Shown one piece after another: positions 8,077 to 39,731 of a DNA stretch of 40,077 nucleotides. The notes below the pieces were generated by a model that ran no database searches, was not told where the DNA came from, and saw only the letters and a list, made by a program, of their open reading frames with translations. Source of the stretch: Gammaproteobacteria bacterium (GTDB taxonomy: Bacteria; Pseudomonadota; Gammaproteobacteria; Steroidobacterales; PWYM01); assembly GCA_007127715.1 (NCBI GenBank), contig SKYU01000055.1:1-40077 (forward strand), written 5' to 3'. The stretch's first letter is position 1. Each line of letters starts with the position of its first letter. A program made the position numbers and the translations under genes.

Positions 8077-8127
8077 AGGCGCTCCCGGACACGTGGCGGC
8101 CACAGTGTAGCCCTTCGGGCGAGGCAT

Positions 8128-8156
8128 TTGCCCCCACCCCGGACGGCGGGTATCTT
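8128..8156 (+). promoter_or_regulatory. Candidate sigma70-like promoter upstream of the DUF1499 pair
   Basis: TTGCCC - 17 bp - TATCTT, 34 bp before the ATG at 8190. Confidence 0.3.
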
Positions 8157-8189
8157 CCCACGGCCAGCCCGCCTTGCAGGAGACAACCG

Positions 8190-8975
8190 ATGTCCGCCGA
8201 CACGCCCGCCCCCCGACTGCCCTCCCGCTGGGCCCTCGCCTGCGGCTGGCTGGCGCTGGCCGCGCTGGTGTTCACCCTGCTGGTGCTGGCCTACACGGGC
8301 CCGGCCTACCGGGCCGAGTGGATCGACGTGCGTACTGCCCTGTTCACGCTGCTGCGCTGGGCCGCATGGGGCAGCATCGCCTGCATCGTCCTGGGCCTGA
8401 TCGCGACACTCTGGAACATACACTCCGGCAGCCGGCGGATGGCCGTCCTCGGGGCCGTCGTGCTGGTGGTCGGCGCCGCCCTGACGGTGAACTTCCTCAG
8501 CTGGCAGCGAACGGCACGCTCGGTCCCGCCGATCCACGACATCACCACCGACACTCTGGACCCGCCCGCCTTCGTGGACGTCGTGCCGCTGCGTGTCGAC
8601 GCCCGCAACCCCCCGGAATATCCGGGTGACGAGGTGGCCGTGCGCCAGCGGGAGGCCTATCCCGACCTGCAGCCCATCCGCGTGGCTGCATCCCCGGCAG
8701 CCGTCTTCGAGGCGGCTTCTGCCGTGGTGGAGCGCAAGCGCTGGACGCTGGTGGCCGAGGTGCCCGCGGAGGGCAGGATCGAAGCCACGGACAGCACCTT
8801 CTACTTCGGATTCCAGGATGACGTGGTGATCCGCATACGCCCGGACGGCGAGGGCAGCGTCGTCGATATCCGCTCGAAATCGCGTGTGGGGATGTCTGAT
8901 GTGGGCACCAACGCACGGCGGATCCGTGACTTCCGGGACGCCCTGCTGGCCCGGGTCCCGGCGCATGAGGACTGA
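8190..8975 (+). CDS. DUF1499 domain membrane protein (paralogue 1)
   Basis: N-terminal hydrophobic segments followed by PPIHDITTDTLDPPAF...EGRIEATDSTFYFGFQDDVVIRI...SKSRVGMSDVGTNARRIRDFRD, typical DUF1499. Confidence 0.88.
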   Translation: MSADTPAPRLPSRWALACGWLALAALVFTLLVLAYTGPAYRAEWIDVRTALFTLLRWAAWGSIACIVLGLIATLWNIHSGSRRMAVLGAVVLVVGAALTVNFLSWQRTARSVPPIHDITTDTLDPPAFVDVVPLRVDARNPPEYPGDEVAVRQREAYPDLQPIRVAASPAAVFEAASAVVERKRWTLVAEVPAEGRIEATDSTFYFGFQDDVVIRIRPDGEGSVVDIRSKSRVGMSDVGTNARRIRDFRDALLARVPAHED

Positions 8976-37856: not shown

Positions 37857-37893
37857 ACACCCGGATGTCCGTCGGACATCCGGGTGTTTTTTT
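37857..37893 (+). terminator. Rho-independent terminator of TonB receptor 3
   Basis: Perfect 14-bp stem ACACCCGGATGTCC - GTC - GGACATCCGGGTGT followed by a T-tract. Confidence 0.93.
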
Positions 37894-37922: not shown

Positions 37923-38498
37923 TCAGGGTGCAAACGGCGGCTGGATCCAGAGTGCGGACTTCGCGATCAGCGCGCCCAGCAGCGCTCCCACGAACACGTC
38001 GGTCGGATAATGCAGCCCGAGGATGACACGCGAGGCAGCCACCAGCAGCGCAAAAGGCACGAGCACGATCGCCAGCACCGGAAACCATGCGACCGCCAGC
38101 GTCGTGAACAGCACCGCGTGCAGCGTGTGACCGCTCGGAAAACTGTAACGATCAAGCGGTGGGGTCGCGCAGACGATGCCAGCATGGGAGACAAAGGGAC
38201 GCTCGCGGACCAGACGCCGCTTGAGACCCGCATAGACCGCAACGCCAAGCAGCGCGGCCAGCCCCATCTGCAGGGCGGCGACACGTCCGGCGGGTCCCAG
38301 GCCCACTGCGCACGCGGCCATCAGCATATACCAGAACACGCCGTCGCCCAGACGACTGACCACGGCAAACAGGCGACGTACGCCCGGGTGGCGGGCCAGC
38401 GCGTTGATCCGCAGACACAGCTGCTGCTCGAGCGTGTCGCAGACCTCCAACGCGCGAGGCGGGCGGGTTCTCGAACCTGTGATGGCCATGGGCTTCAT
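37923..38498 (-). CDS. PAP2 superfamily phosphatase (membrane)
   Basis: All three PAP2 motifs intact: KRRLVRERP (Kx6RP), FPSGHT (PSGH), SRVILGLHYPTD (SRx5Hx3D). Confidence 0.92.
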   Translation of the reverse strand: MKPMAITGSRTRPPRALEVCDTLEQQLCLRINALARHPGVRRLFAVVSRLGDGVFWYMLMAACAVGLGPAGRVAALQMGLAALLGVAVYAGLKRRLVRERPFVSHAGIVCATPPLDRYSFPSGHTLHAVLFTTLAVAWFPVLAIVLVPFALLVAASRVILGLHYPTDVFVGALLGALIAKSALWIQPPFAP

Positions 38499-38521
38499 GC
38501 ACTGTAGTGTCGCGGCGCGTC

Positions 38522-38561
38522 AAGACAGCACGATTGCAGTTCGCTGACAGTTGCATGAAAC
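38522..38561 (-). promoter_or_regulatory. Candidate PhoB-binding array facing the PAP2 gene (four half-sites, 11-bp pitch)
   Basis: Minus strand: GTTTCAT-GCAA-CTGTCAG-CGAA-CTGCAAT-CGTG-CTGTCTT; unit edges at 38555, 38544, 38533, 38522. Confidence 0.65.
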
Positions 38562-38595
38562 CTCGCGGTCCGGCACTGACCTCCAGCCACAGGCG

Positions 38596-38635
38596 CGGTC
38601 ACATGGCTGTCACAAGGCTGAAAGACGGCGGTAAC
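38596..38635 (+). promoter_or_regulatory. Candidate PhoB-binding array facing the GT4 gene (four half-sites, 11-bp pitch)
   Basis: Plus strand: CGGTCAC-ATGG-CTGTCAC-AAGG-CTGAAAG-ACGG-CGGTAAC; unit starts at 38596, 38607, 38618, 38629. Confidence 0.7.
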
Positions 38636-38657
38636 CTCGCGCAGGCTCAATGCGGCC

Positions 38658-39731
38658 ATGCGAATCGCCATCTGTACCGATGCGTGGCAACCCCAGGTCA
38701 ACGGCGTGGTCACCACCCTCGGCCATACCCGCACCCAGCTCGAGGCCTTCGGTCACGAGGTGGCGGTGTTCTCGCCGGGCAGCGGCTTCCGGACGGTGCC
38801 CCTCCCCGGTTACCCGGAGATCCGCCTGCCGCTGAGCCCGGGGGGGCGGATGGCGGACCTGCTGGCGGCCTTCGCCCCGGAGTGCGTACATATCGCCACC
38901 GAGGGCCCCATCGGGTGGGCTGCACGACGCTGGTGCCTGCGCAACGGACAGCCGTTCACCACCTCCTACCACACGCAGTTCCCCGAGTACCTCCGCGCAC
39001 GGCTGCCCGTGCCCGAGCGACTGAGTTATTCGCTGTTGAGACGTTTTCACCGGCCGGCGGTACGCACACTGGTGCCGACCGAGCAGGTGAGACGGAAACT
39101 GGCCGCACAGGGGTTCGAGCGGCTGGTGCTGTGGACGCGGGGCGTGGACACCGGGGTCTTCCATCCGGACCACCCCGCCCCGCCAGCGCTCGAACTGCCC
39201 AGGCCGCTATGGGTTTGCGCCGGCCGGGTGGCCGTCGAGAAAAACCTCGAGGCCTTCCTCTCCCTGGAGCTGCCCGGAAGCAAGATCATCATCGGTGACG
39301 GGCCCGCACGCGCCAGCCTGCAGCAACGCCACCCGGGGGCATATTTCGCCGGTTACCGCTTTGGCGAGGAACTCGCGGCCTGGCTGTCGGCCTGCGACGT
39401 CTTTGTATTCCCCAGCCGGACAGACACTTTCGGCCTGGTGATGCTCGAGGCGATGGCCTGCGGGCTGCCGGTGGCCGCCTACCCCGTCAACGGCCCGATC
39501 GACGTCATCCGCCCGGGGGTGAGCGGGGTGTTGGACGAAGACCTTCGAAAAGCCTGTCTCGCGGCACTGACGCTCGAGCGCCCGGCGGTTCGCAGGGAAG
39601 CCTGTCGCTACAGTTGGGAGGCGGCGGCGCGGCAGTTCGAAGCCGCCCTCGTCCCGGGTGATGCCGCCGATCCGGATGGCGACCCGGCAGACGGATCGCC
39701 CACGCGGACCATCGACCCCGCGCTGCGCTGA
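38658..39731 (+). CDS. Family 4-type (GT-B) glycosyltransferase, candidate glycolipid synthase
   Basis: RIAICTDAWQPQVNGVVTTL N-terminal motif; PSRTDTFGLVMLEAMACGLPVAAYPVNGPIDVI C-terminal retaining GT4 motif, as in MgtA/PimB/SQD2-like lipid glycosyltransferases. Confidence 0.9.
   Translation: MRIAICTDAWQPQVNGVVTTLGHTRTQLEAFGHEVAVFSPGSGFRTVPLPGYPEIRLPLSPGGRMADLLAAFAPECVHIATEGPIGWAARRWCLRNGQPFTTSYHTQFPEYLRARLPVPERLSYSLLRRFHRPAVRTLVPTEQVRRKLAAQGFERLVLWTRGVDTGVFHPDHPAPPALELPRPLWVCAGRVAVEKNLEAFLSLELPGSKIIIGDGPARASLQQRHPGAYFAGYRFGEELAAWLSACDVFVFPSRTDTFGLVMLEAMACGLPVAAYPVNGPIDVIRPGVSGVLDEDLRKACLAALTLERPAVRREACRYSWEAAARQFEAALVPGDAADPDGDPADGSPTRTIDPALR

Follow-up and report, generated by a model that had tools for sequence, protein, structure and literature searches.

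The 159-bp region between a PAP2-superfamily phosphatase gene and a GT4 glycosyltransferase gene is in all likelihood a divergent pair of PhoB-activated promoters, as judged from its sequence. The two genes are very probably induced together in phosphate starvation and would help to swap phospholipids for sugar lipids. It is well supported that the promoters are of a known kind and represent a new example, the less usual features being the near-leaderless pair and the PAP2 partner. On the best reading, PAP2 is an added member of a phosphate-starvation lipid-remodelling promoter pair. The window, meaning the whole 40,077-nt stretch analysed, is contig C7 of a 2.78-Mb genome in 217 contigs that is approximately 90% complete. 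The arrays, their spacing, conservation and genome ranking, the PhoB protein and the gene families are read directly from the DNA. The features of the locus are as follows.

37923..38498, minus strand: PAP2-superfamily phosphatase gene, 191 aa (PF01569, E=4.6e-20; KX6RP, PSGH and SRX5HX3D all present)
38506..38511, minus strand: putative PAP2 promoter -10 hexamer GACACT, ATG 7 nt on (fixed 10-nt offset; A2/T6 in 10/10 PAP2-side promoters)
38512..38521, minus strand: PAP2-side 10-nt spacer, half-site 4 to -10 (same length in E. coli pstS)
38522..38528, minus strand: PAP2-side PhoB half-site 4, CTGTCTT, at the -35 position (motif and conservation)
38533..38539, minus strand: PAP2-side PhoB half-site 3, CTGCAAT (motif and conservation)
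38544..38550, minus strand: PAP2-side PhoB half-site 2, CTGTCAG (motif and conservation)
38555..38561, minus strand: PAP2-side PhoB half-site 1, GTTTCAT (motif and conservation)
38562..38595, no strand: inter-array gap, 34 bp (varies among species)
38596..38602, plus strand: GT4-side PhoB half-site 1, CGGTCAC (motif, genome pattern search and conservation)
38607..38613, plus strand: GT4-side PhoB half-site 2, CTGTCAC, perfect consensus (motif, genome pattern search and conservation)
38618..38624, plus strand: GT4-side PhoB half-site 3, CTGAAAG, weak (motif and conservation)
38629..38635, plus strand: GT4-side PhoB half-site 4, CGGTAAC, at the -35 position (motif and conservation)
38636..38645, plus strand: GT4-side 10-nt spacer, half-site 4 to -10 (promoter alignment)
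38646..38651, plus strand: putative GT4 promoter -10-like hexamer CTCAAT, ATG 6 nt on (T6 conserved; A2 replaced by T in the window's genome and the two relatives nearest to it)
38658..39731, plus strand: GT4 glycosyltransferase gene, 357 aa, probably Agt-like (PF13439/PF13692; metallophosphatase-GT4 neighbourhood in relatives; no Shine-Dalgarno)

The eight 7-mers that the initial annotation had reported, four per strand at an 11-bp pitch, were all found in place, and its counts of 14/18 (plus strand) and 13/18 (minus strand) for the best Pho-box matches were correct on rechecking. The plus-strand site is the sole 14/18 match in the 40-kb window. Matches of 13/18 occur six times, and the minus-strand box taken singly is unremarkable. 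Because single 13/18 matches are this common, the strength of the case lies in the arrays and not in single boxes. Both four-unit arrays score 22/28, the top two scores among approximately 80,000 window positions, and in both the 7-bp direct repeats with 4-bp linkers fit the consensus CTGTCAY. The arrays had been described as hard to explain by chance, and simulation agreed: none of 100 Markov-3 windows reached a score of at least 22, with a score of 21 arising approximately 0.06 times per window.

Conservation was assessed in ten loci at which PAP2 and GT4 genes diverge, drawn from five congeneric species and five less closely related ones. Both arrays are kept in all ten. In every locus the GT4-side array falls in the register -66 to -61 relative to the ATG and scores 17–23; the PAP2-side arrays score 19–23. 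Control windows taken from other registers and from coding DNA (n=1,430) had a mean of 11 and a maximum of 17. Averaging the half-sites in a frame fixed to the ATG gave a blurred profile, since the distance from the -10 to the ATG varies by 1–3 nt, and the best register within a 6-nt window was therefore used. Information per column was 0.88 bit in the half-sites and 0.89 bit in the -10, against 0.21 bit in the linkers and 0.20 bit in the spacer (half-sites versus linkers and spacer, p=4e-7). The ten loci share ancestry and are not fully independent; the linkers and the inter-array gap have changed freely among them.

The genome was ranked by pattern searches and by model searches. In the pattern search, three places in the genome came within one mismatch of the two-half-site consensus CTGTCAYNNNNCTGTCAY, one of them being CGGTCACATGGCTGTCAC. 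A near-perfect site at C212:8329 was set aside, as it lies within a coding frame and has no good array. Counts of single boxes were discarded as evidence: allowing up to three mismatches gave 452 sites, compared with 411 for the reversed pattern. The model was built from sequence only, using 18 promoters of other species and leaving out the window's genome and its two nearest relatives. By this out-of-sample model the PAP2 array ranked first (E=1.4e-6) and the GT4 array third (E=0.017). Second came an array with phoU on one side and a porin gene on the other (E=0.004), and fourth one that precedes a phosphate-selective porin O/P gene (E=0.04). The ranks weigh more than the figures, since a shortened calibration leaves the E-values rough. 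A weaker match lies directly upstream of the PlcP-like metallophosphatase gene on contig C186 (E=0.39). No phosphate gene was assigned to the matches at C149:21199 (E 0.2) and C62:42770 (E 2.5). The pstS array on contig C172 (CCATCAT-TTGTAAC-GTTTCAT-TTGTCTT, 10 nt, GAGACT) was absent from the model search list and was revealed by direct scanning. No four-unit array was found at phoB itself.

With conservation in relatives and an exceptional genome-wide rank both borne out, PhoB-type arrays, one for each divergent gene, are the best-supported reading. That the repeats arose by chance in a G+C-rich intergenic region would account for the six single 13/18 matches in the window; it fails against the simulations, which gave no four-unit arrays at such a score, against half-sites conserved across genera while linkers are not, and against the genome-wide rank. 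With conservation seen on both sides in ten loci, this explanation is considered refuted and is given next to no probability.

A single PhoB was found above the curated cut-off in the genome (344 bits, 60% identity to E. coli PhoB). It keeps all residues compared, R193, H198, R200, R201, R203, T217 and R219, which we take to be those that touch DNA in the E. coli PhoB-DNA structure. Searching the genome with the PhoB model gave 31 matches, among them several full-length OmpR/PhoB-type proteins, and the arrays could instead be bound by another member of this family that also favours direct repeats at an 11-bp pitch, such as the PhoB-like regulator encoded next to the metallophosphatase gene on C186. 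We regard this as very improbable: the half-sites fit CTGTCAY, the consensus of E. coli PhoB itself, similar arrays stand upstream of pstS and the phosphate-selective porin in the same genome, and no compared contact residue is altered in the true PhoB. A marginally less remote alternative, though also improbable, is that one array is active, the PAP2 side being the stronger, and that the other is a remnant or a modulating operator. The model scores of 30 bits on the PAP2 side and 17 on the GT4 side would fit this, as would the weak half-site 3 and weak -10 of the GT4 side. Against it, the GT4-side arrays are held at one register in 10/10 loci, and there is little room for another GT4 promoter. 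The points counted against the preferred reading, two PhoB-activated promoters, include the GT4 -10 lacking A2, the weak half-site 3 and a phoB gene lacking a four-unit array.

The layout downstream of the arrays was not covered by the initial annotation, which mentioned neither the spacing to the -10, nor near-leaderless starts, nor the PlcP-Agt lipid-remodelling context. In all ten loci each array is followed, after exactly 10 nt, by a -10-like hexamer, and the position of the -10 played no part in choosing the arrays. Every one of the 18 promoters from other species has A2 and T6 in this hexamer; in the window's genome and the two relatives nearest to it the GT4 hexamer CTCAAT lacks A2. The E. 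coli pstS promoter, used as a control, has the same layout as both promoters here, with four 7-bp repeats at an 11-bp pitch, 10 nt and then the -10 TATTTT. Structural models imply strict spacing between the Pho box and the core promoter (PMC10294691; PMC3348028).

In E. coli, pstS has one promoter, and approximately 50 nt containing a Shine-Dalgarno sequence separate its -10 from the start codon, whereas the window has two promoters back to back, both predicted to be near-leaderless. The GT4 start codon lies 5–8 nt past the hexamer in 10/10 loci and the PAP2 start codon 6–8 nt past it in 9/10, the exception being locus L082; three of the PAP2 starts are GTG or TTG. A Shine-Dalgarno-like tetramer precedes GT4 in one locus of the ten (a weak AGGA, L086), and none was found before the window's GT4 gene. 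Because the distance from the -10 to the start codon is only 5–8 nt and Shine-Dalgarno sequences are almost absent, both mRNAs are probably near-leaderless, with 5' ends predicted, from the usual distance between a -10 and the transcription start, within approximately 2 nt of the start codons. In the same genome pstS, both porin genes and the PlcP-like metallophosphatase gene have longer, ordinary leaders. Leaderless genes occur in some gamma-proteobacteria (PMC3160421), and TA-led genes within this class are reported mostly from Xanthomonadales and Legionellales (PMC3160421). As in both genes here, TA-led leaderless genes have a -10 approximately 10 bp before the start and no Shine-Dalgarno. 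Unlike them, the present pair would be coupled to PhoB promoters that need an activator, one at each end of a single region. These promoters suggest that four PhoB half-sites held strictly 10 nt from the -10 can serve a promoter placed right against the start codon, which would join PhoB activation to leaderless translation.

In the mechanism that we infer, which extends to PhoB occupancy, the phosphate response, start sites and enzyme substrates, two back-to-back sigma-70 promoters would be activated by PhoB within the 159 bp. The four half-sites per side would leave room for two PhoB dimers on one DNA face, with half-site 4 replacing the -35 element 10 nt before the -10. In low phosphate, PhoR would phosphorylate PhoB, which would fill each array and recruit RNA polymerase, so that both genes would be induced jointly. 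Transcription would start at or within approximately 2 nt of each start codon and yield near-leaderless mRNAs. The Agt-like GT4 would put sugar on diacylglycerol. PAP2 would dephosphorylate phosphatidate to diacylglycerol, beside the PlcP-like phosphatase under its own Pho array elsewhere.

The lipid-remodelling context comes from gene neighbourhoods. The GT4 gene lies directly 3' of a metallophosphatase gene in approximately 30 relatives, and 25 of 36 such operons have an array scoring at least 18 upstream of the metallophosphatase gene, a set that includes two genomes twice and in which the array is on the opposite strand only at three loci. The best reading of neighbourhood and family is an Agt-like GT4 and a PlcP-like phosphatase. 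The metallophosphatase matches LpxH-like models below their cut-off, and the GT4 had no close relative among solved structures. The known plcP-agt genes (P. aeruginosa PA3219-PA3218, marine bacteria, Agrobacterium agt) likewise place an Agt-like glycosyltransferase under Pho boxes, and the GT4 relatives share their arrangement in directly following a PlcP-like metallophosphatase gene. Under phosphate stress this arrangement yields MGDG and GADG (PMC8528852, PMC4796936), as do the P. aeruginosa PlcP-Agt genes with their Pho boxes (PMC8528852). The window differs in that its GT4 stands opposite PAP2, with the PlcP-like gene elsewhere, on C186, under its own array.

The motifs KX6RP, PSGH and SRX5HX3D were present in 35 of 37 PAP2 entries; the two failing entries are duplicates of a single gene truncated at the end of its contig. 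One relative (G039) has PAP2 in tandem with metallophosphatase and GT4 genes, and in six relatives PAP2 genes away from GT4 carry arrays scoring 20–22. Its predicted regulation ties this PAP2 phosphatase to phosphate-starvation lipid remodelling, the array also standing on PAP2 genes away from this GT4. A P. aeruginosa plcP mutant keeps some GADG, pointing to another diacylglycerol source (PMC8528852). Because some GADG still forms in the mutant, a diacylglycerol role for PAP2 is plausible, and PAP2 is a concrete candidate for the source in plcP mutants; we tentatively propose it as the diacylglycerol supplier for glycolipid synthesis, at somewhat under even chances. No mention of PAP2 in a PlcP-Agt lipid-remodelling role was found in the literature searched, which covered few subscription papers. 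A broader proposal, which we hold to be rather unlikely, is that this PAP2 subfamily is an unrecognised gamma-proteobacterial member of lipid remodelling that would deliver diacylglycerol to Agt without phospholipid breakdown and share a divergent PhoB promoter with it, the mRNAs being selected as leaderless, a feature that the remainder of the Pho regulon would lack.

Several further observations were made. At L175, L177, L183, L184, L191 and L193, PAP2 genes that do not adjoin this GT4 show the order four-unit Pho array, 10-nt spacer and A2/T6 hexamer, and their leaders are longer. At L087 a metallophosphatase-GT4 pair has two Pho arrays, the first upstream of both genes and the other directly before GT4. 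Minus-strand arrays upstream of the metallophosphatase gene at L090, L104, L129 and L130 point away from that gene, and those at L090 and L104 face a PAP2 gene. The PhoB-like response regulator on C186 (positions 8103-8771, minus strand; L032) is 41% identical to E. coli PhoB and falls below the PhoB cut-off. Its phosphoacceptor Asp is replaced by Glu and an acidic-pocket Asp by Asn, and its gene is divergent from the adjoining PlcP-like metallophosphatase gene; it is possibly a phosphorylation-independent regulator. L133, from a MAG titled Klebsiella pneumoniae, encodes a GT4 at 56% identity to that of the window, and the title is probably wrong. Within the window, an inverted repeat at 37857-37893 (ACACCCGGATGTCCG/TCGGACATCCGGGTGT) followed by a T run is a likely terminator, placed where the TonB-dependent receptor gene and the PAP2 gene converge.
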